NCBI GenBank assembly: GCA_003564735.1
Contig: PXEK01000125.1
Coordinates: 1-10,881 of the forward strand
DNA length: 10,881 nt
DNA from: Cryomorphaceae bacterium
GTDB lineage: Bacteria > Bacteroidota > Bacteroidia > Flavobacteriales_G > Salibacteraceae
Reading direction: 5' to 3'
Part shown: positions 88-10,881 of the stretch, piece after piece
How the letters are laid out: each line of letters opens with the position of its first letter
Position numbering within the stretch: the stretch's first letter is position 1
Program-made: the position numbers and the translations under genes
Notes under the pieces: generated by a model
The model's input: only the letters and a program-made list of their open reading frames with translations
What the model was told of the DNA's origin: nothing
The model's database searches: none

Positions 88-1548
88 TCATCCCCTTGTG
101 GTGTGTCGATTCAAAATTCTGCGACTCTCTCTTTTAACCTCGGAGTCTTTTCTCATTTTCCACAGCATATCCGCGGCGTATTTGTTGGCTTTTTCCAAAT
201 TCACAATGGGTGCGGGATAGTGTTCGCCAATCATACAACCCGCAAACTGCTGCTCCATAAGCGGCATTTTCCAAGGCTCATGAATATAGGCCGGCGGCAC
301 ATTGAAAAGCTCAGAGACATATTTTTTTATAAATTCCCCTTGGGGGTCGTGCTCCACAGATTGTTTTACGGGATTATATATTCGAATGGTGTTCACTCCG
401 GTTATGCCGGCTTGCATTTGAAATTGCGGGTAATGAATACCCGGCTCGTAATCTAAGAACATTCGCGCCAACCACTCTGCCGCCGGCTGCCACGGTTGCC
501 ACAGGTGAGCCGTAATAAAACTCACCACCATTGCTCGCATTCTAAAATTCAAATATCCCGTTTCCCTCACCGCTCTCATACACGCATCTACCAACGGATA
601 TCCCGTGGTTCCGGTTTTCCACGCCTGAAAATACGCCTCATTAAACGGCTTTTCCATGCGGTTGTAGCCCGAGTTATAATTTTCAAACTCCATTCTCGAC
701 TCCGACTCAAACTTTTGTATAAAATGACAGTGCCAACGGAGTCGTTCGGCAAAAAAAAGCAAGTTTTTCGCATTTCCCCCTTTCGCCTGTTGCACACATT
801 CCTGATACACGCGCCGTATGCTCACATTTCCCCACGCCAAATAAGGCGATAGTCGGCTACACGACTCCCTGCTGGCAGCGGGTTTTGAAATGCCCTTCAT
901 ATAACCCCTGCTGCGGTATTCAAAAAATGAGTTGAGGGTTTTCAGGGCCTGCGTTTCACCGCCCTTTTGCATTTTTTGGTCAGAGCCCCCAACCCTATGC
1001 AAAATATCCTCTGCTGAAAAGCGGGATGTTACATGTGACGGTAAAGCTATGGTTTCCAACCTATTTAAATCTAGTTGATAAAGCGGGCGAGACAAAAATT
1101 CACTTGAGCGTGTACCGCGACCTTTTCGGGTTTTGAGTCCGCGCCAAACGGCATACTGCTTAAACTCTTTAAGCGAAATTCCTTTTTCGCTAAGTAGTTT
1201 TTTTACGGCTACATCTCTTTGAAACGTAATGTGGTTGCCCGTTTCAAAATGCGCATATACATGGTTTACTGCGTATTGACCGGCAAGGGCTTCAAACACC
1301 TCTACGACGCTGCCGTGAAGGATATGTACTCTTTTTCCGGCGCGCTGCAACCTACCTTCGAAATCAGTCAACGACTGAACGATAAAACGCTCGTGCCTTG
1401 CGTCATAATCTTTGGCGGTGCGCACCTCAGGTTCAAACACATACATCACAATACAGGGTAAATCACTTTCGGCGGCGCGACAAAGCGGCGCATGATCATC
1501 GGTACGGATGTCGCGCTTTAACCAAACCACGTTTACTTTCTGCTTCAC
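88..1548 (-). CDS. Divergent cryptochrome/photolyase family flavoprotein
   Basis: A 486-residue protein with the photolyase layout: an N-terminal Rossmann-like antenna domain (about 4-135, opening VNVVWLKRDIRTDDH) and a C-terminal helical FAD-binding domain (about 205-460, including TGYPLVDACMR at 315-325 and NPVKQS at 392-397). The family repairs UV dimers with blue light or acts as a photoreceptor. By hand alignment to E. coli photolyase, the distal and middle electron-transfer tryptophans are kept (W310, W353), while the FAD-proximal one is F376. The Asn facing flavin N5 is H372, and the CPD-contacting Glu is R269. It is therefore not a standard class I CPD photolyase, and repair versus sensing is open. 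The start is GTG: an in-frame TAA lies 24 bases upstream, no ATG lies between, and the conserved N-terminus begins at once. It is divergent from the SDR gene and lies near folE/PTPS pterin genes, which could supply an antenna. Confidence 0.93.
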   Translation of the reverse strand: MKQKVNVVWLKRDIRTDDHAPLCRAAESDLPCIVMYVFEPEVRTAKDYDARHERFIVQSLTDFEGRLQRAGKRVHILHGSVVEVFEALAGQYAVNHVYAHFETGNHITFQRDVAVKKLLSEKGISLKEFKQYAVWRGLKTRKGRGTRSSEFLSRPLYQLDLNRLETIALPSHVTSRFSAEDILHRVGGSDQKMQKGGETQALKTLNSFFEYRSRGYMKGISKPAASRESCSRLSPYLAWGNVSIRRVYQECVQQAKGGNAKNLLFFAERLRWHCHFIQKFESESRMEFENYNSGYNRMEKPFNEAYFQAWKTGTTGYPLVDACMRAVRETGYLNFRMRAMVVSFITAHLWQPWQPAAEWLARMFLDYEPGIHYPQFQMQAGITGVNTIRIYNPVKQSVEHDPQGEFIKKYVSELFNVPPAYIHEPWKMPLMEQQFAGCMIGEHYPAPIVNLEKANKYAADMLWKMRKDSEVKRESRRILNRHTTRG

Positions 1549-1561
1549 AATTGAAAAACAT

Positions 1562-1628
1562 ACCGGCGTTTATATGGTTCTGACCAAAAAGATAAAAATA
1601 ACCCCGAGCTCCTTTACAATACGCCGGT
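1562..1628. repeat. Inverted repeat ACCGGCGT/ACGCCGGT flanking the divergent promoters
   Basis: ACCGGCGT at 1562-1569 and its exact reverse complement ACGCCGGT at 1621-1628 bracket the core of the photolyase/SDR gap. The same 8-mer recurs at 4322-4329 in the crtB/idi gap. Inside the gap CTCCTT also occurs twice, at 1609-1614 and 1630-1635, exactly 21 bases (two helical turns) apart. Paired sites of this kind suit a dimeric regulator, but no binding protein is identified. Confidence 0.4.
1587..1619 (-). promoter_or_regulatory. Candidate promoter for the photolyase gene
   Basis: On the minus strand TTG (1617-1619) is followed after 22 bases by TATCTTTT (1587-1594). This is one mismatch from the Bacteroidetes -7 consensus TAnnTTTG with a -33 TTG. 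It would start transcription about 30 bases before the GTG. The region is AT-rich, so a chance match is quite possible. Confidence 0.3.
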
Positions 1629-1639
1629 TCTCCTTAGTT
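1621..1639 (+). promoter_or_regulatory. Shared intergenic element, copy A
   Basis: ACGCCGGT (1621-1628) runs directly into TTCTCCTTAGTT (1628-1639). Both blocks recur in the same order and in the same orientation to the downstream gene ahead of idi (4296-4329, minus strand), where about 15 bases separate them. The 12-base block leads into the candidate -7 box of the SDR gene. It could be a binding site for the sigma factor or another regulator, or a small dispersed repeat. Confidence 0.45.
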
Positions 1640-1642
1640 TTG
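1635..1642 (+). promoter_or_regulatory. Candidate -7 promoter box for the SDR gene
   Basis: TAGTTTTG matches the Bacteroidetes -7 consensus TAnnTTTG and lies 32 bases before the ATG at 1675, giving a short leader. No TTG is seen at the expected upstream distance, so recognition may depend on an activator or on an alternative sigma factor. Confidence 0.4.
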
Positions 1643-1674
1643 AACCCTGACAAGAACGTAAAAACACAGTGGAT

Positions 1675-2463
1675 ATGAATTTAGATTTAACGGGTAAAAC
1701 GGCATTGGTAGCCGGGAGTACGCAGGGAATTGGACAAAAAACGGCAGAGCAATTGGCTAAAATGGGCGCAAGTGTGGTGCTTATGGCGCGAAATGAAGAT
1801 AAACTCAAAGAGGTTATGCAATCTTTACACGCTGCCAAGGGAGCCGAACACGGATATATTGTTGCAGATTTCTCAAAGTACGAGGAGGTTCGCGAAAGGG
1901 CTTCAGCGTTTTTTGAAAAACGTGCCGAGTTGCATATTTTGGTGAACAATACGGGCGGACCTCCCGGCGGCCCCATCATTGACGCACAACCCGAAGATTT
2001 TTTGGCTGCTTTTCAAAGTCATTTGATTTGCAATCATATATTGGCGCAAATTGCCGTGCCGTTAATGCGTAAGGCAGGCTACGGGCGCATTATTAACGTG
2101 GTTTCCACATCGGTAAAAGCGCCGCTGAGTAATTTGGGCGTTTCCAACACCGTGCGAGGTGCGGTAGCCAATTGGGCCAAGACTTTAGCCAACGAAATAA
2201 GCAGGTATAACATTACGGTAAACAATGTGTTGCCGGGTGCTACAAATACATCACGACTGACTTCCATTGTTGAGAAAAAGAGCGAAAAAACAGGAAAAAG
2301 TTTTGAGGAAGTACTTCAAGACATGAATAATGCCGTGCCCATGAAGCGTGTGGCCGAGCCTGAAGAAACGGCTGATGCCATTGCTTTTCTCGCCTCACCC
2401 GCGGCAGGCTACATCAACGGGACTAACGTGCCTGTAGATGGAGGAAGAACGCCCGTGCTATAA
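1675..2463 (+). CDS. SDR-family protein with altered catalytic residues
   Basis: A 262-residue short-chain dehydrogenase/reductase-like protein (numbering from the ATG at 1675). The Rossmann cofactor motif reads AGSTQGIGQ near residues 13-21, and the usual NNAG is NNTGG at 91-95, in a run NNTGGPPGGP. The C-terminal PVDGGR motif is present near 253-258. Classical SDRs use Ser-x12-Tyr-x3-Lys. Here the Ser is present (S144), but the Tyr position is S157 and the Lys position is R161, so ordinary keto reduction is doubtful. An SDR subgroup with the pattern SNTxR is known from memory, and its substrates are unclear to me. The GTG six bases upstream is in frame, but ATG is the likelier start. It is divergent from the photolyase and convergent with folE, so it may belong to the light or pterin functions. 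The family is certain; the activity is unknown. Confidence 0.92.
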   Translation: MNLDLTGKTALVAGSTQGIGQKTAEQLAKMGASVVLMARNEDKLKEVMQSLHAAKGAEHGYIVADFSKYEEVRERASAFFEKRAELHILVNNTGGPPGGPIIDAQPEDFLAAFQSHLICNHILAQIAVPLMRKAGYGRIINVVSTSVKAPLSNLGVSNTVRGAVANWAKTLANEISRYNITVNNVLPGATNTSRLTSIVEKKSEKTGKSFEEVLQDMNNAVPMKRVAEPEETADAIAFLASPAAGYINGTNVPVDGGRTPVL

Positions 2464-2475
2464 CAGACGTTCTTC
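2444..2475 (+). terminator. Possible SDR terminator hairpin overlapping the stop codon
   Basis: GAAGAACG (2444-2451) pairs perfectly with CGTTCTTC (2468-2475) around a 16-base loop that contains the TAA stop. It is followed by a T-rich stretch (TCAGTTTTGATTTG). The stem is in the last codons of the gene and the loop is large, so this is only a candidate. On the minus strand it could also help end the folE transcript. Confidence 0.35.
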
Positions 2476-2530
2476 TCAGTTTTGATTTGTATAAGTTTGG
2501 GTGGTGTAAGGACGCAGAGCGAACTACGCT

Positions 2531-3247
2531 TTAATCCATATCGATATACTTCAAAAACTCGTTCCGCTTTTGATCATTGGTTTTGAAAACGCCTCCGTAG
2601 TGTGAAGTGATGGTAGAGCCCGAAGCATCTTCAATGCCCCGCATGCTTACGCACATGTGCTTAGCGTCAATAATTACGGCAATATCTTCGGTGCGTAAAA
2701 CGCGTTTTAATTCCGCAGCAATTTGCTCAGTCAAGCGCTCCTGGACCTGAGGACGTTTCGAAAAATAGCGAACGATGCGATTAATTTTTGACAACCCGAT
2801 AACGTGTCCGTTCGAAATGTACGCCACATGAGCTTGACCGATAATCGGCACAAAATGATGCTCGCAGTGAGAGTGTACGGTTACGCCCTTTTCTACCAAC
2901 ATTTCGTTGTACTTATACTTATTGTCGAACAACTTTACGTTGGGTAAATTTTCGGGATCTAAGCCGCTAAAAATTTCTTTGATATACATCTTCGCCACTC
3001 GGTCGGGAGTACCTCTTAAACTGTCATCGGTTAAATCGAGACCCATGATATCCATAATTTCGCCGAAGTGATAAGCGATTTTATCCATTTTTTCCTCATC
3101 GCTCATTTCAAAGGCATCGGCCTTCATGGGCGTATCAGAGGCAGTTCCTACGTGTTCATCTCCAATTTCATCTGCGTCGAGCGTTAACCTTTCTTTTCCG
3201 TTAACTTTAATTTCCGCTGTATTCAACGAAGTTTCGGGGAGTTTCAT
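2531..3247 (-). CDS. folE: GTP cyclohydrolase I
   Basis: A 238-residue type I GTP cyclohydrolase, which converts GTP to 7,8-dihydroneopterin triphosphate, the first step of folate and tetrahydrobiopterin-type pterin synthesis; it is cytosolic and in this family decameric. The zinc ligands are visible as C128 and H131 in CEHHFVPIIG and C199 in KHMCVSMRG. The conserved helix SKINRIVRYFSKRPQVQERL is at 153-172. The core starts near residue 50; the first 45 residues are an acidic, variable extension like that of other Bacteroidetes FolE proteins. With the ATG at 3247 the gene overlaps the PTPS gene by 41 bases; a later start (next ATG at codon 41) cannot be excluded. It is last in the idi-PTPS-folE group, so the two pterin enzymes are likely cotranscribed. 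Confidence 0.96.
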   Translation of the reverse strand: MKLPETSLNTAEIKVNGKERLTLDADEIGDEHVGTASDTPMKADAFEMSDEEKMDKIAYHFGEIMDIMGLDLTDDSLRGTPDRVAKMYIKEIFSGLDPENLPNVKLFDNKYKYNEMLVEKGVTVHSHCEHHFVPIIGQAHVAYISNGHVIGLSKINRIVRYFSKRPQVQERLTEQIAAELKRVLRTEDIAVIIDAKHMCVSMRGIEDASGSTITSHYGGVFKTNDQKRNEFLKYIDMD

Positions 3248-3617
3248 AAAGTGTAATTTTAAGTTTAAATGCAGGGTCGAGTTGTTTTTTAATCTTATTC
3301 CAAATCACCACGGCTATATTTTCAGCCGTAGGGTTCAAATTTTTAAATTCGGCAGTATCCAAATTTAAGTTTTTATGATCAAAAGGTTTTTCTACCTGCT
3401 CTTTAATAATTGTTTTAAGGTCTTTCATGTCAATTACGTACCCGGTTTCCTCATCTATAGACCCCGTAACACTAACAACAAGCTCATAGTTGTGTCCGTG
3501 ATAATTAGGATTGTTGCACTTCCCGAAGATGCGATTATTCTTTTCGTCATCCCATTCGGGGTTGTGTAGCCGGTGAGCGGCGTTAAAATGTGCCTTTCTG
3601 TGTACTGTAACTTCCAT
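3207..3617 (-). CDS. 6-pyruvoyl-tetrahydropterin synthase, eukaryote-like type
   Basis: A 136-residue member of the PTPS/QueD family. Zinc ligands are H15 (FNAAHRL), H40 and H42 (NPNYHGHNY). The catalytic Cys is C34 in FGKCNNPN, and D80-H81 (FDHKNLN) and E125 complete the site. The spacing Cys-x5-His-Gly-His and the surrounding residues match animal PTPS closely, whereas QueD enzymes of queuosine synthesis have Cys-x3-His-Gly-His. The expected reaction is dihydroneopterin triphosphate to 6-pyruvoyl-tetrahydropterin, using the product of the folE gene that overlaps its 3' end by 41 bases. The ATG lies 18 bases after the idi stop. PTPS-type enzymes can be promiscuous, so a second role is possible, but the gene pair favours a biopterin-like cofactor or pigment pterin. 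Confidence 0.9.
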   Translation of the reverse strand: MEVTVHRKAHFNAAHRLHNPEWDDEKNNRIFGKCNNPNYHGHNYELVVSVTGSIDEETGYVIDMKDLKTIIKEQVEKPFDHKNLNLDTAEFKNLNPTAENIAVVIWNKIKKQLDPAFKLKITLYETPRNFVEYSGN

Positions 3618-3635
3618 GTGGCTATGTAACCTTAA

Positions 3636-4157
3636 TTAAAACGTTTTGTTTTTAAATTCAATGACTTTATTTACCGCAATCTTAAACCACTCGGTGTAAT
3701 TTGTAGGGTTTTGTTCAATATCCTTAAGCAATTTATCTACCGCAATGTATTTAAAATCGGCCACCTCATCGGTATTGAAGGGAGGAACATCATCGTAAGT
3801 GCCTACAAAAACATGATCATATTCGTGTTCCGTGAGGTTATTATCCAGTTTTGATTTGTATTTGAATTCAAAGGCTTTTTCCAAATCACATACAAACCCC
3901 ATTTCTTCTACTAACCTGCGCTTTGCCGCTTCGAGGGGCGTTTCGTTTTCACGGGGGTGGCTGCAACAAGCGTTAGTCCAGAGTCCGCCCGAGTGATATT
4001 TATGATGTGCCCGTTGGTGAATCAACATCTCTCCCTTTTGATTGAATATAAAAACAGAAAACGCACGGTGAAGCAAAGCTTTCTCATGTGCTTCCATTTT
4101 TTCCATAGTACCTAAAGGTTGGTCATTGTCATCTACCAAAACGACGTGCTCACTCAT
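3636..4157 (-). CDS. idi: Isopentenyl-diphosphate delta-isomerase, type 1
   Basis: A 173-residue Nudix-fold isomerase that interconverts IPP and DMAPP, supplying the starter for carotenoid synthesis; it is cytosolic and metal dependent. Catalytic C65 lies in WTNACCSHP, metal-binding histidines are likely H24, H30 and H67, the Nudix-like helix is EAAKRRLVEEMG (76-87), and the catalytic acids are E110 and E112 in TEHEYDHV. The start is taken as the ATG at 4157. An in-frame TTG three codons earlier falls inside the candidate -7 box, and the family consensus N-terminus fits MSEHVVLVDD. It leads the group idi-PTPS-folE, following crtB after a 230-base gap with its own candidate promoter. Confidence 0.96.
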   Translation of the reverse strand: MSEHVVLVDDNDQPLGTMEKMEAHEKALLHRAFSVFIFNQKGEMLIHQRAHHKYHSGGLWTNACCSHPRENETPLEAAKRRLVEEMGFVCDLEKAFEFKYKSKLDNNLTEHEYDHVFVGTYDDVPPFNTDEVADFKYIAVDKLLKDIEQNPTNYTEWFKIAVNKVIEFKNKTF

Positions 4158-4163
4158 AAATTT

Positions 4164-4191
4164 CAAAATTAATTATCTAATATGTTTACAA
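4164..4191 (-). promoter_or_regulatory. Candidate promoter for idi-PTPS-folE
   Basis: On the minus strand TTG (4189-4191), a 17-base spacer and TAATTTTG (4164-4171) match the Bacteroidetes -33/-7 pattern. The -7 box ends only six bases before the idi ATG at 4157. Transcription would therefore begin almost at the start codon, giving a leaderless or nearly leaderless message. Confidence 0.45.
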
Positions 4192-4295
4192 TGCTCAACT
4201 TACGGGCCAATCAAGTAACATCACAGTGCAAAAGTCAGCAAAAATGAATTGATTATCGAGAAATAAGCTAAAATTTCCTACGATTCGTTCATTTC

Positions 4296-4329
4296 AACTA
4301 AGGAGAATCGATAGTATTTAAACCGGCGT
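4296..4329 (-). promoter_or_regulatory. Shared intergenic element, copy B
   Basis: On the plus strand AACTAAGGAGAA (4296-4307) and ACCGGCGTA (4322-4330) repeat the two blocks found fused at 1621-1639, here separated by about 15 bases. Read toward idi (minus strand) the order is ACGCCGGT then TTCTCCTTAGTT, the same order as toward the SDR gene. The gap otherwise holds no convincing gene or terminator. Confidence 0.45.
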
Positions 4330-4387
4330 AAACGCTGTGAAGGCTTATGAATTGTATTGCTTTATGAGATAATGATAATTGAGGGAA

Positions 4388-5230
4388 CTAAATCACTCCC
4401 ACATTGTGTTTGATATAAGAAGATACTAAAATTCCGATTTTTCTGTCGTTCCCAATGCGGATACGTTCTTTCATGATGCGATTGGCCGGCGTGTTTTGGA
4501 TTTTCTTCAGCAATCCGAAAAAGTAGGCATAAGCCACATAAACGCCAAACCTTGAGGATTTTGGCAGCATTTTTACTCCTTCCAATCCATATTGGAAATC
4601 CGATTCGATTTCCCGCTCGATGTTGAGTTTGCACTCATCGTCAAAGCACTCCATTTCGATACCGGGAAAATAAGTACGTCCCATTTCCTTATAATCGGCT
4701 TGCATATCGCGCAGGAAGTTTATTTTTTGAAAAGCCGCGCCCAGTTTCATGGCATAAGGCTTTAATTTTTGATACGTTTTTTCATCGCCGTCAACGAAAA
4801 CCTTAAGACACATTAAGCCTACAACCTCTGCCGATCCAAGGATATACTCCTCATAGTTCTGGCGGTCGTATTTTTTTCGATCTAAATCCATTTCCATACT
4901 ATCCAGAAATGTGTTGATTAAATCGGGAGTTATATTGAACCTGCGCACTACATGCTGGAAACTATTGAGAACGGGATTTAATGAAATTCCGTTTTTAATG
5001 GCGTTGTGTGTGTCTTTTTTAAACTCTTCAAGGAGTGCTTCCTTATCGTAATCGTGAAACGTATCTACGATTTCATCAGCGAACCGAACAAAGCCGTAGA
5101 TAGAATAAATAGGATTTCTTAAGCTTTTGTGCAAGCACAAAATACCTAAAGAAAAGCTGGTGCTGTATTTTTTCGTCACGTTGCGCGAACAATGAATCGA
5201 AATATCATCAAATAAGGCTTTAGCTTGCAT
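4388..5230 (-). CDS. crtB: Phytoene synthase
   Basis: A 280-residue squalene/phytoene synthase family enzyme that condenses two geranylgeranyl diphosphates head to head into phytoene. Both Asp-rich diphosphate/Mg sites are visible: D52-x3-D56 in FADEIVD and D175-x3-D179 in NFLRDMQADY. Other family marks are the N-terminal YSTSFSLG (22-29), where squalene/phytoene synthases carry a YxxSF motif, and GRTYFP (184-189). The length is normal for bacterial CrtB. The ATG is six bases after the crtI stop, so the two genes are cotranscribed. It acts at the inner membrane face, handing phytoene to CrtI. There is no sign of a C30 (CrtM) specialisation that can be judged by eye. Confidence 0.95.
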   Translation of the reverse strand: MQAKALFDDISIHCSRNVTKKYSTSFSLGILCLHKSLRNPIYSIYGFVRFADEIVDTFHDYDKEALLEEFKKDTHNAIKNGISLNPVLNSFQHVVRRFNITPDLINTFLDSMEMDLDRKKYDRQNYEEYILGSAEVVGLMCLKVFVDGDEKTYQKLKPYAMKLGAAFQKINFLRDMQADYKEMGRTYFPGIEMECFDDECKLNIEREIESDFQYGLEGVKMLPKSSRFGVYVAYAYFFGLLKKIQNTPANRIMKERIRIGNDRKIGILVSSYIKHNVGVI

Positions 5231-5236
5231 AATCGT

Positions 5237-6712
5237 CTAATTAAAAAGTTTGTTTATCTCGTTTGCCGCTACCTGTCCTGAGATGATTGAAGGCGGAACA
5301 CCCGGTCCGGGAACAGTAATCTGACCTGTGTAAAACAGATTTTTTAATTTTTTGTTCGCAATACTAGGTTTTAAAATAGCCGTTTGCATCAGCGTATTGG
5401 CTAGACCGTAAGCATTTCCCTTAAACGCACTGTAATCTTCTTTAAAGTTACTCTCGGCGTATGAAAGCTTGTAAATCACGTGGTCTTTAATTTTTTGGCC
5501 CGTTAACTTTTCGAGTCTATCCATCACCAAGTCGTAGTATTTTTCTCGCGTTTGCTCATCATCACCTCCAAGGCCGGGCGCGGTAGGAATCAATATAAAA
5601 ATATTTTCCTTTCCTTCGGGAGCCGTGCCGGGATCGGTTTTACTAGGCGCACAAACATAAAACAACGGATTTTGCGGCCATTTGGGGTTCTCGTAAATCT
5701 CCTTTGCGTGTTGCTCAAAATCTGAATCAAAAAATAAATTGTGATGCAGTAAGTTACTCACTTTTTTATCTACTCCCAAATAGAACAGCAGTGAAGAAGG
5801 AGCCATGGTTCGGGAGTCCCAATATTTTTTTTTATAGTTTCTATATTTTTTATCCACCAAATGTTGATCAACGTGGTGATAATCGGCACCGGCCACCACG
5901 GCATCGGCTTTTATTTCTCGGTTTTTGGTCAGAACCGAACCCACTCCGCGACCCGAGTAAGAAAAACCTTCAACCGGATTGTTGAGTTGTATTTCAACCC
6001 CTTGCTCTTCGGCAACTTTGGTCATGGCTTTTGCAATTTGGTGCATTCCACCCATCGGGTACCAAGTCCCTAAACCCATGTCGGCGTAGTTCATTAAACT
6101 ATACAAAGCGGGAATTTTGTCGGGCATGGCTCCGAGAAAAAGAACCGGGAATTCTAATATTTTAATGAGGTGAGGGTCTTTAAACAGCCTTCTCACTTGA
6201 GAGCGGAGCGATTTAAAAACGTCCATTTTCAATAAGCCGTAAAGAAAGCGCGGATCGGTAAACTCAAAAAGCGACTTACTGGGTTTGTAAACCAACTTGT
6301 TTATTCCCACTTCATATTTGTAAGCTGCTTCATCGAGGAACTTATCTAACTTTTTCCCCGCGCCTTTTTCACGATCTTCAAACATTTGTAGTAAGTCGGC
6401 ACGAGAAGACGGCAAGTCCACCGCATCATTTTCGCCGAAGTAAACACGATAAGAGGGAGAAAGACGTTTTAAGTCGTAAAAATCTTCAGTGGTATGACCA
6501 AAGTTTTGGTAATACTTTTCAAAAACATCAGGCATCCAGTACCAACTGGGGCCCATATCAAACGTAAAACCCGCGTTTTTAAACTCGCGGGCTCTACCAC
6601 CGGTTTGGTTATGCTTTTCAACAAGCGTAACGTCAAAACCTTTTTTTGAAAGGTGCGCCGCAGAGGACAACCCTGCGAATCCCGCACCTATAACAACTAC
6701 TTTTTTTTTCAA
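5237..6712 (-). CDS. crtI: Phytoene desaturase
   Basis: A 491-residue FAD-dependent CrtI-type desaturase, which takes phytoene through successive desaturations, normally to lycopene. The N-terminus carries the dinucleotide motif VVVIGAGFAGLSSAAHL (5-21) and the following acidic strand end VEKHNQTGGRA. The C-terminal carotenoid-desaturase signature GQITVPGPGVPPSIISGQV is at 463-481. The start is TTG, directly abutting the TAA stop of the sigma gene (TAATTG); no ATG or GTG precedes the essential Rossmann strand, so coupled reinitiation is likely. Codons 2-4 form a run of nine A. CrtI-like paralogues (CrtD, CrtN, CrtO types) exist, but pairing with crtB supports phytoene as substrate. No cyclase or hydroxylase gene is present in the window. 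Confidence 0.94.
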   Translation of the reverse strand: MKKKVVVIGAGFAGLSSAAHLSKKGFDVTLVEKHNQTGGRAREFKNAGFTFDMGPSWYWMPDVFEKYYQNFGHTTEDFYDLKRLSPSYRVYFGENDAVDLPSSRADLLQMFEDREKGAGKKLDKFLDEAAYKYEVGINKLVYKPSKSLFEFTDPRFLYGLLKMDVFKSLRSQVRRLFKDPHLIKILEFPVLFLGAMPDKIPALYSLMNYADMGLGTWYPMGGMHQIAKAMTKVAEEQGVEIQLNNPVEGFSYSGRGVGSVLTKNREIKADAVVAGADYHHVDQHLVDKKYRNYKKKYWDSRTMAPSSLLFYLGVDKKVSNLLHHNLFFDSDFEQHAKEIYENPKWPQNPLFYVCAPSKTDPGTAPEGKENIFILIPTAPGLGGDDEQTREKYYDLVMDRLEKLTGQKIKDHVIYKLSYAESNFKEDYSAFKGNAYGLANTLMQTAILKPSIANKKLKNLFYTGQITVPGPGVPPSIISGQVAANEINKLFN

Positions 6713-7216
6713 TTACCTGTAATCCTTAAGGGTTTCCATTAATTTTTGTCGGGCCAAAAAGATACGACTTTTTACCGTACCAATAGGTAAAGAAAGTTCG
6801 TCGGCAATTTCTTTGTATTTAAAACCTCTAAAGTGCATCATGAAAGGAACTCTATATTCGTCTTCCAGTTCAGCCACCTTTTTTTGAATTTCTTGGTGCG
6901 AAAAAACACTTTCGGGGGCATTTTCATCAGAAGGTTTTGCTGCATTTAAGTAATACAAGTCCTCAGTTTGATCAATAATCGTGTTCGCTTTTACCGCTCT
7001 TCTGTAATTATTGATAAACGTGTTTTTCATTATCGTGTAAGCCCAAGCCTTTAAATTGGTATTGGCTTTGAACTTGTCCTTATAATTAATTGCCTTCAAC
7101 ATGGTTTCTTGAAGAAGATCATTTGCATCTGCTTCATTTGCCGTAAGTTGTAAAGCGAAATAATTAAGAGGGTTTCTCAATGAAAGAAGTTCCTCAGTAA
7201 AATCGTACTTTGCCAT
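6713..7216 (-). CDS. ECF-type RNA polymerase sigma factor
   Basis: A 167-residue sigma-70 family protein with only regions 2 and 4. Region 2 spans about 15-75 (DANDLLQETMLKA, then NLKAWAYTIMKNTFINNYRR). Region 4 spans about 108-163, with the helix-turn-helix GFKYKEIADELSLPIGTVKS at 131-150. It heads the carotenoid operon, zero bases before crtI, a linkage commonly seen in flavobacterial carotenoid clusters. No anti-sigma or membrane partner gene is adjacent, so how its activity is controlled is not visible. It probably directs transcription of its own operon or of other stress genes; light or oxidative stress is a reasonable inference, not shown by the sequence. Confidence 0.93.
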   Translation of the reverse strand: MAKYDFTEELLSLRNPLNYFALQLTANEADANDLLQETMLKAINYKDKFKANTNLKAWAYTIMKNTFINNYRRAVKANTIIDQTEDLYYLNAAKPSDENAPESVFSHQEIQKKVAELEDEYRVPFMMHFRGFKYKEIADELSLPIGTVKSRIFLARQKLMETLKDYR

Positions 7217-7654: not shown

Positions 7655-10600
7655 ATGAGACACTTTTACATTCTGATTATCTATTTCTTTATTTCGGCAT
7701 TCTCTCAAGGAAAACTTGTTAGTCAAACCGTTCAATTAGGCAGTGGAACAGACGTATCCGCCCCTTCCCAAGCCGGGCCGGTAAATATTTACTTTCGAAA
7801 ATCAAGACTTCAAATTGTTTACTCTGCATCTGAGCTTTCGGCCGCCGGGTTGAATTCAGGATGTATAATTAATTCTCTGGCCTGGTTTGTTGAGTCACCT
7901 CCTATTCATAACATTCCTGATTACACAATAAAATTAAAGCACACCTCTGCTAATAATGCCTTCTCGTCTCTAGGGGATAACGGGTGGACCACGGTAAAGT
8001 CTCCCTTCTTGTATGCTCCTGCCTCAAACCCGAGTTGGGATGAACTCATTTTTGATAATTCTTTCTTTTGGAACGGAGTCGATAACTTAGCTGTTGAGGT
8101 ATGTTGGAGTCAAGTGCAACCGAATTGGGATGAATCAGGCCAAACACGAACTTACAACGAACCCGATGGCATGATTTTCATAAGGAATGACACTCCGGGA
8201 TCGGGGTGCGTATTATCACCGGATCAACCTGTGAATTACAAGCCCCAAGTACAATTCAACACCATTTGCTCAAACTCTGAAAATGATGCCGGTGTTTCCT
8301 CCCTTAATACACCTTCAGGAAATTTTTGTCCCGGTATCCAAGAGATAGAGGTTACCATTCAAAACTTTGGCGTAAACCAAATCAATAACGTTGATATCAA
8401 TTGGACTTTGAACGGAATCACTCAAAGCACGGTGACCTACAACAACCCACTCGATACCGTGGGGGGGGCAAACCCGTCATCAGCTATCGTAAGTTTAGGC
8501 TTTCACAATATTCCGTCCGGTCAATCTGAAATAATTGCTTGGACGAGCATGCCCAACGGAGTTCAGGACACTGCAAATAGTAACGATACTTTGACCGCAT
8601 TTCTACAGCCCGCGCCACCTTCGCCTCGCGATTTTACCATTACCGAGCTTTCCGCCGGCAACTTCGAAATTGAGATTGAGCCCGAAGATTCAAATAATTT
8701 ATGGATTTATGCGGTAGCGGGTGCCAATGACACTGCACCTAATTTCACCTTATCCAACACCCCGGTTATTCAAGTTTCGGGGTTAGATCCGGGAAGAGCG
8801 CACAATGTATTCGCGGCAGAGTTATGTCCTTCCGGAACTGACACGTCACAAGTATTAGGCCCTAAAAACATTCAAACCGATTTTGTTCCCAATACGGGTG
8901 CCTACGTATTCACAACCGCAGGAAGTACGGGTCGGCAAGGACCCGATCAAAACGACTTGAACCAAGCTTATTCGGGAACCAATTTAGACGGGAACGTTAC
9001 CTCAGATGACGGAATACAACTTTGGAGTCCGCCCTTTAACGGTGACTACCGCATAACAGCCATTGGCGGCGGAGGAGGAAATGCGGTTGCGTCAACAATG
9101 ATGAATCCAACACCCGACCCAAATGATATTTTAGGATTAGCCGGAGCCGGAAGCCTCATGTCAGGCACTTTTTCTCTAACTACTGAAGACACCCTTAAAA
9201 TTCTTGTAGGCCAAAAAGGCGCAGATGAGTTAGCGGGCTCAGGAGGCGGGGGAACTTTCGTCACACTAAAAAACGATTCGCCCTTAGTCGTGGCAGGCGG
9301 TGGCGGTGGAGCAATTCCAGATACATTTATTTATATAAATAACAGTTTAGCCACGAATACCGGCACTTTGGGCGGTCAAGCCTCTCCGGGAATAGGCGGC
9401 GGTGGCGGACTGATTGGCGACGGAGATATACCCCCTTCGGCCTCCCTATCTAAAAATGGTAGTAGTTTTATTTCGGGAGGAGAAGGCGGTGACGGTGAAA
9501 TCTTCATGATTGAAGTTTTTATTCCCGTTCCGGGTGGTTTCGGTGGCGGAGGATCATATAATTACTCGGTGGGTCAATTCATGTCCTCTCCGGAAATTAG
9601 CGGCCCCGGCGGTGGCTATTCGGGAGGTAATGCTTTTAATGCCAACGCAGGTTCGGCAGGTGGCGGGTCTTTCAACGTCGGTTCTGACCAAAATAATATT
9701 GAGGCATTTAACAGGGGAGATGGCTCTGTAATTGTAGAGTTTGTTCCCACACAATCCAATGATATTGCCGTTACCTCCATCGACTCTCCGGCAGTATTCT
9801 GTCCCGGCCCCAACGATGTAGTAGTTACGGTGTCAAATTTGGGAATCAATCAAGTCAATTCTTTCGATGTGGAATGGAGCGTGGACGGTGTTCCCCAACC
9901 CACTTCAAGTTTTAACCTTTCACTCGATACCATTGGCGGCACAGGCTCGTCAACAGCGCAAGTAAATTTGGGCAGCTTTAATTTTTCCACGGCCTTATAT
10001 TCTATATCTGCTCACACTTCGAATCCCAACGGCCAACCCGATAGTAACCCCGGTAATGATACAACATCTATCACGGTTGAGTCCGGCATATCAAGTCCAA
10101 CAGATATTACCATAACAAACATCACGGGGAACTCGGCACAAATAAGTTGGACACCGGCCAACGCAAGCAACAATTGGATATACTCTGTAGTACCTCAAGG
10201 CCAAAGTCCCGACACGGGTACCCTGATCAATTCACCCTCGGTAATAATCACGGGTCTCGACCAATTAACTACATATGATTTTTATGTTCGAGAAGTTTGT
10301 GCTTTAGGCGGTGATACCACCGCTTGGACGGCAGCAACAAGTTTTACTACAGATTTCTTTTGTCCACCCAATGCCCGGTGTTTTTCATCCGCTAATAATA
10401 CGGGGAATACCGGGCCAAGTCAAGGTTTGCTCGACACCTTCTACCAAGGCACTAACCTTGAGGGTAAGGTAACCTCACAAAACGGAATACAATTGTGGAA
10501 TGTGCCCGCTACGGGGAAATGGAGACTCACGGCAATGGGAGCATCCGGAGGGACGGTGCCACGGAACGACCCCGGTTTTGGAGCTTACTTAGAGGGTACC

Positions 10601-10881
10601 TTCGAACTCATCCAAGATCAAGAGTTAGGAATTATAGTCGGGCAGCAGGGTGAAAGCAGCAATACCATATTTGAAGGCGGCGGCGGTGGCGGCGGCTCAT
10701 TTATTTGGTCAACCGATGATACAACAACACAACCTTTATTAGTCGCCGGCGGTGGCGCGGGAGGCGGAAATAATTCCTTAGGTTCTACGCCCTCAAAACA
10801 CGGTGATACATTAATGACGGGAGGTAGTAATGGGGGTGGTGAACCCGGAGGCATCAACGGGCAAGGAGGAGACGCCGGGGG
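7655..10881 (+). CDS. Large secreted modular protein with ALK/LTK-like glycine-rich domains (3' end outside window)
   Basis: One frame is open from the ATG at 7655 to the window edge (1075 codons, no stop). Residues 1-17 are a signal peptide with likely cleavage after AFS. Residues about 24-201 form a beta-rich domain of a kind seen in Bacteroidetes secreted proteins (SLAWFVESPP, YTIKLKHTSANN, FFWNGVDNLAVEVCW). Then a module occurs twice: Ig/CARDB-like (211-318 and 703-809), FN3-like (321-409 and 813-900) and a glycine-rich domain (415-697 and 908 onward). The glycine-rich domains carry GxxGxxGP, GIQLW, ILVGQxG or IIVGQQG, PLxVAGGG and GGFGGGG, in the order found in the extracellular domain of animal ALK/LTK. 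No enzyme motif is seen, so an adhesin or surface-matrix role is inferred. A type IX secretion tail would be expected beyond the window and is not visible. Confidence 0.88.
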   Translation, partial: MRHFYILIIYFFISAFSQGKLVSQTVQLGSGTDVSAPSQAGPVNIYFRKSRLQIVYSASELSAAGLNSGCIINSLAWFVESPPIHNIPDYTIKLKHTSANNAFSSLGDNGWTTVKSPFLYAPASNPSWDELIFDNSFFWNGVDNLAVEVCWSQVQPNWDESGQTRTYNEPDGMIFIRNDTPGSGCVLSPDQPVNYKPQVQFNTICSNSENDAGVSSLNTPSGNFCPGIQEIEVTIQNFGVNQINNVDINWTLNGITQSTVTYNNPLDTVGGANPSSAIVSLGFHNIPSGQSEIIAWTSMPNGVQDTANSNDTLTAFLQPAPPSPRDFTITELSAGNFEIEIEPEDSNNLWIYAVAGANDTAPNFTLSNTPVIQVSGLDPGRAHNVFAAELCPSGTDTSQVLGPKNIQTDFVPNTGAYVFTTAGSTGRQGPDQNDLNQAYSGTNLDGNVTSDDGIQLWSPPFNGDYRITAIGGGGGNAVASTMMNPTPDPNDILGLAGAGSLMSGTFSLTTEDTLKILVGQKGADELAGSGGGGTFVTLKNDSPLVVAGGGGGAIPDTFIYINNSLATNTGTLGGQASPGIGGGGGLIGDGDIPPSASLSKNGSSFISGGEGGDGEIFMIEVFIPVPGGFGGGGSYNYSVGQFMSSPEISGPGGGYSGGNAFNANAGSAGGGSFNVGSDQNNIEAFNRGDGSVIVEFVPTQSNDIAVTSIDSPAVFCPGPNDVVVTVSNLGINQVNSFDVEWSVDGVPQPTSSFNLSLDTIGGTGSSTAQVNLGSFNFSTALYSISAHTSNPNGQPDSNPGNDTTSITVESGISSPTDITITNITGNSAQISWTPANASNNWIYSVVPQGQSPDTGTLINSPSVIITGLDQLTTYDFYVREVCALGGDTTAWTAATSFTTDFFCPPNARCFSSANNTGNTGPSQGLLDTFYQGTNLEGKVTSQNGIQLWNVPATGKWRLTAMGASGGTVPRNDPGFGAYLEGTFELIQDQELGIIVGQQGESSNTIFEGGGGGGGSFIWSTDDTTTQPLLVAGGGAGGGNNSLGSTPSKHGDTLMTGGSNGGGEPGGINGQGGDAG
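8285..9745 (+). repeat. Module copy 1: Ig/CARDB-like, FN3-like, glycine-rich
   Basis: Residues 211-697 of the secreted protein. The Ig/CARDB part starts DAGVSSLNTPSGNFCPG and includes NPLDTVGGANPSS; the FN3-like part includes NNLWIYAVAGANDT and VSGLDPG. The glycine-rich part (nt 8897-9745) has GGGGG runs at 471-475 and 581-585 and ends GDGSVIVEF. Copy 2 follows at an offset of about 492 residues with the same order and matching signature residues. Confidence 0.75.
8461..8468 (+). repeat. G8 homopolymer inside the secreted-protein gene
   Basis: Eight consecutive G encode V269-G270-G271-A272 of module copy 1. Module copy 2 encodes the equivalent IGGT with mixed codons (ATTGGCGGCACA), so the tract is not required by the protein. 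Slippage by one base would shift the frame of the remaining gene. Confidence 0.6.
9761..10881 (+). repeat. Module copy 2, truncated by the window edge
   Basis: Residues 703-1075. It begins DIAVTSIDSPAVFCPGP and includes LSLDTIGGTGSS, NNWIYSVVPQGQ and ITGLDQ, each lining up with copy 1. The second glycine-rich domain (nt 10376 onward) shows NTGNTGPSQ, GIQLWNVP, IIVGQQGE, a seven-Gly run at 1008-1014 and PLLVAGGGAGGG. It is cut before its expected C-terminal part. Confidence 0.75.

Follow-up and report, generated by a model that had tools for sequence, protein, structure and literature searches.

The window analysed here is a stretch of 10,881 bp that constitutes a whole contig of a 2.29 Mb, 83% complete genome. 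A block of bacterial genes occupies positions 88-7216, on the reverse strand except for 1669-2463, and encodes a photolyase/cryptochrome, a short-chain dehydrogenase, GTP cyclohydrolase I, a PTPS/QueD-like protein, a Nudix protein (IPP isomerase-like), phytoene synthase, a phytoene desaturase-like oxidoreductase and an ECF sigma factor. A coding sequence at 7655..10881 on the forward strand comprises 1,075 complete codons and is open at its 3' end, where the contig stops. From the amino end, this open reading frame (ORF) contains a probable signal peptide (7655..7729), a stretch of about 180 residues forming an N-terminal domain without a Pfam family (approximately residues 26-207; 7730..8275), stalk A (8279..8884), a complete ALK/LTK-type glycine-rich domain (GRD1; residues 415-698; 8897..9748), stalk B (9752..10366) and a second glycine-rich domain (GRD2; residues 905-1075; 10367..10881), all on the forward strand. 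The contig end leaves the first ~170 of the ~280 residues of GRD2 and cuts off the rest. Both glycine-rich segments thus lie where an earlier, sequence-only reading had placed them. The signal peptide was assigned by eye from the translation, the start of which has the typical look of one.

Residues 1-415 of the ORF had no Pfam match at E 0.01, and stalk A accordingly has none of its own, but it resembles stalk B. Pfam matched stalk B very weakly to CARDB (residues 713-771, E 0.89) and also to fn3 (residues 813-887, positions 10091-10315, E 4.1e-8). The two stalks share 36% identity over ~200 residues, indicating that a stalk-GRD unit of ~490 residues was duplicated.

From ~2.3 kb onward, the window is syntenic with a locus of a genus-mate, which carries the same gene in the same gene order. 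Over 1,083 alignment columns, the genus-mate protein shows 56% identity; it too runs off its contig, within a third GRD. Its GRD2 copy shares 70% identity with GRD2 of the window over the common part. Eukaryotic contamination was ruled out by this synteny and by the bacterial carotenoid, pterin and photolyase genes on the contig, which are themselves uninformative on adhesion. One search of the source genome for the missing half of GRD2 found no further contig. In both genomes, GRD genes are interrupted by contig ends (position 10881 of the window, and the low ends of the genus-mate locus and of a locus with a paralogue from the source genome). The GRD repeats probably defeat short-read assembly, and GRD genes may be undercounted owing to such breaks.

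Kinship with the ALK/LTK glycine-rich domain

Two analyses proposed in the sequence-only reading, a profile search and a structure prediction, both bore out the suggested likeness to ALK. Against the Pfam family PF12810 (ALK_LTK_GRD), the window ORF scored 74.3 bits (E 1.9e-20) over two stretches, compared to a curated cut-off of 24.5. A phmmer search against all PDB chain sequences returned human ALK as the top match (5.7e-12), followed by human LTK and C. elegans scd-2, and scores against two stretches of human ALK were 60.5 bits for GRD1 and 60.4 bits for GRD2. The predicted structure of GRD1 was confident, with a TNF-like sandwich and a polyglycine-helix lattice as in the ALK/LTK fold, and overlaid ALK at 1.9 Å over 249 residues. 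About 35% identity to ALK is kept.

For a control, each GRD was shuffled 500 times with every glycine fixed and the other residues permuted. The best shuffles reached 6.7 bits (GRD1) and -6.4 bits (GRD2). The first 110 residues alone scored 43.0 bits (GRD1) and 49.0 bits (GRD2) against human ALK, compared to best shuffles of -3.9 and -2.7 bits. Composition can inflate glycine-rich profile scores, but a likeness to ALK made up of glycine content alone is ruled out for practical purposes, as none of the 500 shuffles of either GRD approached the real score, the first 110 residues match ALK by themselves and the model overlays the ALK structure.

The N-terminal segment reads GPxQ...Y.GTNL...V...GIQLW in the GRDs and GPTQAQ...Y..SNL...V...GIQIW in human ALK, and it is found in both GRDs; in GRD1 (GPDQ...YSGTNL...GIQLW) it lies at 8939..9025 on the forward strand. 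The translations of GRD1 and GRD2 further contain, respectively, GPDQ and GPSQ, GIQLW in both, LKILVGQKG and LGIIVGQQG, a poly-Gly run ahead of a strand, and PLVVAGGGG and PLLVAGGGAGG. GRD1 also has GGFGGGG, the last of the ALK motifs claimed for both segments; in GRD2 the place of this motif lies beyond the contig end, and the genus-mate GRD2 copy has it. These results show that the GRDs of the window are kin to the ALK domain.

Bacterial relatives, the hook subtype and export

The subtype to which the GRDs of the window belong is called hook type here, and the other Bacteroidota members of PF12810 Y type, the latter represented by 21 rows picked from the loci of a PF12810 search, with some loci left out. 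The N-terminal GPxQ...GIQxW pattern was present in 31 of 32 hook-type rows, 33 of 47 viral rows and 1 of 21 Y-type rows. When profiles of the three types were scored against human ALK, the hook profile gave 143 bits, the viral profile 136 bits and the Y profile 29 bits.

A profile of the first 100 residues of the GRD was searched against 35 family genomes; in 11 of them the matches started at the N-terminal end of the GRD and took in the segment, and in three more they covered only column 35 onward. Matches were obtained in 13 genomes of a 395-genome phylum sample, those from the N-terminal end only in the source genome and one other. The domain is expanded in the source genome, with six such GRDs on five contigs, each of which has a gene start by eye. 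A narrow single-pattern scan of named organisms returned two loci, both from the genus-mate, and a search of a plasmid collection with the genus-mate GRD2 gave no match. In two other Bacteroidota genomes (G068 and G077), we observed 20 and 10 PF12810 matches, of the Y type where inspected (L039, L045, L046 and L048); the one long protein scanned, in L039, has Ig_7 and PKD domains alongside its four GRDs and carries a T9SS signal.

The sequence-only reading had guessed that Pfam already catalogues bacterial members of the family. This was right in that Pfam covers part of them: the window ORF, the genus-mate copy and the paralogue from the source genome all exceed the PF12810 cut-off. However, 6 of the 7 complete hook-type relatives had no PF12810 match at E 0.01, with the seventh under the cut-off, and 4 of the 11 genomes positive with the 100-residue profile (G001, G005, G020 and G032) had none at E 0.001. 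The Pfam model therefore misses much, though not all, of the subtype nearest ALK.

Bacterial members had also appeared in the literature. The available text of Noel et al. (2010) describes a glycine-rich domain of unknown function common to BspA-like proteins of Trichomonas vaginalis, a flavobacterium, and C. difficile and its phages (PMC2843621). This is probably the ALK/LTK-type family, although the words anaplastic and tyrosine kinase are absent from its main text and a tandem of stalks and GRDs was not found in the sections available. PF12810 has also been reported from a nematode-infecting fungus, with no hint of function in the section available (PMC4859500). Among the matches listed in open-licence full-text literature, we found no ALK-type GRDs in T9SS proteins, stalked tandem GRDs included, no hook subtype and no arrays of GRD genes next to the tail-fibre genes of phages. 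The window protein adds one member to an established domain family, and the wider pattern is the interesting part: a bacterial domain with ~35% identity to ALK and a complete predicted fold, in a subtype that often escapes the current Pfam model. The ALK/LTK GRD has mostly been treated in connection with a single family of animal receptors.

We then considered export. The source genome encodes SprA (2058 bits), a search of it for the type A sorting domain gave 77 matches, and the organism thus has a T9SS. Seven of the 15 complete ORFs among the relatives were searched with Pfam and NCBIfam, and the type A sorting domain was over the cut-off in all seven. In the window ORF, the sorting-domain match was internal and under the cut-off, and the C-terminus lies beyond the contig end; the genus-mate copy is likewise cut, its C-terminus absent. 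Export, as claimed by the sequence-only reading, is backed by the sorting domains of the relatives and by the T9SS of the genome, but not by the cut-off ORF itself. The window protein is probably exported and, judging from its relatives, would also end in a T9SS signal and be bound to the surface.

A candidate stalked adhesin

We favour, with some confidence, the reading of the protein as a T9SS-exported adhesin, on the cell surface or released, with two GRD heads on Ig-like stalks and loops that bind a ligand. The protein of this Cryomorphaceae-like flavobacterium would leave the cell by the T9SS and either remain on the surface or be released. Two ALK/LTK-type GRD heads would be borne on Ig-like stalks (CARDB-like plus FN3), each head a TNF-like β sandwich with a polyglycine-helix lattice projecting from it. 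The conserved glycines would form the lattice, and the variable loops may bind a glycan or a protein carried by particles, algae or other cells.

The position of the GRDs, their variable loops and the plan of a phage tail fibre make this the best reading. The first GRD follows a signal-peptide-like start in 23 of the 27 ORFs compared, where it begins no later than residue 61 of the open frame; the window ORF, with GRD1 from residue 415, belongs to the four exceptions. A GRD right behind a signal-peptide-like start is most likely the outer end of a protein whose C-terminus the T9SS anchors. When 25 hook-type GRDs were aligned and numbered from ORF residue 412, positions 61-90, 181-210 and 226-240 were poorly conserved and partly gapped and the remainder better conserved; part of this low loop conservation consists of gaps, that is, insertions in the window copy. 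In the portions of the sources available, ALK/LTK are described as binding ALKAL cytokines through the GRD region (PMC12017499), and the tail fibre of cyanophage Pam3 is proposed to consist of a glycine stem that is conserved and a hypervariable tip that binds the host (PMC9608196). By analogy, the heads may bind their ligand through the loops. Such variable loops on a polyglycine lattice offer natural scaffolds.

A rigid spacer role would yield the same fold, and the GRDs might be structural: rigid spacers that resist proteases, or bricks that form the matrix of a surface fibre, in either case with no ligand to bind. The repetition of the stalk-GRD unit speaks for this, as do the start of GRD1 at residue 415, away from the N-terminus, and the combination, in some relatives (L039 and L132), of several GRDs with repeats of the PKD, HYR or Ig-like kind. 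However, the placement behind the signal-peptide-like start in most of the ORFs is that of a head, some loops are more variable than a brick requires, and, as far as the available text of both papers goes, the animal versions bind ligands (PMC12017499) and the phage version is proposed to do so (PMC9608196). We therefore regard a purely structural role as unlikely, while giving it real weight.

Viral copies, animal receptors and origin of the domain

The same glycine-rich domain is carried by viral contigs, and Synechococcus phage S-CREM1 is one example of a cultured phage with a gene of this kind. GRD1 matched PHROG 22713 at 3.1e-19 and PHROG 7388 at 2.3e-11, both without an assigned function, and in both viral arrays whose neighbours were scanned (2/2) the GRD genes come after tail-fibre genes. 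The comparison gives a likely function for the unannotated phage family PHROG 22713. Unlike the window protein, many of the viral ORFs are short and have a brief N-terminal part in place of stalks; fewer than 450 residues were counted in 42 of 54. Among the closest known systems are the tail fibre gp24 of Pam3 (7ypx), a tail-tip protein of Bxb1 (9d93) and the GRD (TG region) of the animal ALK/LTK receptors (7nx1, 7ls0, 7n00 and 9g5i, and the invertebrate 7lir). One phage fibre, that of Pam3, was already linked to ALK by structure, and in the part of their paper available the Pam3 authors point out the likeness to C. elegans ALK (PMC9608196).

Two trees were built, with human ALK as the one animal sequence. 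The quick tree kept 98 of 101 rows, three rows of fewer than 150 aa being dropped; the careful tree used 60 chosen rows, with a further 22 viral and 16 Y-type rows dropped. In the careful tree, one group (99/97) united human ALK, every one of the 29 bacterial hook-type rows and 4 viral rows, while the Y type and the other 21 viral rows fell outside it. In this analysis the end branch of ALK is long, its composition odd and the bootstrap not settled. The quick tree placed ALK beside GRD2 of the window (SH-aLRT 94, not starred), and the careful tree placed it elsewhere inside the same group. The Y type formed a separate branch, with all 21 rows in the quick tree and five of them in the careful tree. 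AU tests of groups that were named after the tree had been seen left two rival placements unrejected, one with ALK outside the group (p 0.178) and one that joins ALK to the other phages (p 0.097).

The occurrence of the domain on viral contigs, and the 4 of 25 viral rows that fall among the bacterial rows in the careful tree, would fit capture from a phage tail-fibre adhesin, or an anti-phage decoy, in place of an ordinary adhesin. We consider this improbable, given that no phage gene was recognised in the window, that the block is syntenic with the genus-mate and that the remaining 21 viral rows are placed apart from the group of bacterial rows.

The window protein differs from ALK/LTK in being bacterial and probably T9SS-exported, with two GRD copies on Ig-like stalks. 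Pfam and NCBIfam searches found neither MAM nor LDLa domains ahead of the GRDs in the window ORF, and no kinase in the visible ORF or in the seven complete relatives. Any counterpart in the window gene of the EGF-like part, transmembrane helix and kinase that follow the GRD in the receptors would lie beyond the contig end. The ALK residues S737, Y739 and L760, named as site-2 contacts in the text available (PMC12017499), align with T, I and S in GRD1 and with T, M and E in GRD2, so that the ALK ligand mode is not kept at this site. The predicted fold is the same as that of the cytokine-binding region of ALK/LTK, and the GRDs could in principle receive a secreted protein or peptide signal and report it, as animal ALK does; such a role is very improbable, because a kinase or any other signalling domain is absent from the visible ORF and the seven complete relatives and the three site-2 contacts are changed in both GRDs.

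The bacterial and viral copies point to a shared binding domain, possibly a much older one, and they give a testable origin for the ligand-binding region of ALK. It is conceivable, though doubtful, that the ligand-binding domain of ALK/LTK began as an adhesin head of prokaryotes or viruses and was put to a new use by animals, which would have acquired it from a lineage near these flavobacterial T9SS adhesins, with phages using the same head on their tail fibres. If true, one polyglycine-lattice module would have three uses: as an adhesin in bacteria, as a receptor-binding tip in phages and as a hormone receptor in animals.

Some further features of the viral contigs were observed. Six of them (L055, L058, L062, L063, L064 and L072) carry three or four separate GRD genes each, mostly close together, as if alternative adhesins were kept in reserve. 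Small DUF6171-like genes lie between viral GRD genes (L062:5947-6402, L058:8803-9291 and L072:6186-6668), with phrog_13558 in the two scanned, and possibly encode fibre chaperones. Viral glycine-rich proteins (BFVD matches, and phage record OQ999401.1, which is L119) are named receptor protein-tyrosine kinase or ALK tyrosine kinase receptor, probably through name transfer from the common GRD.
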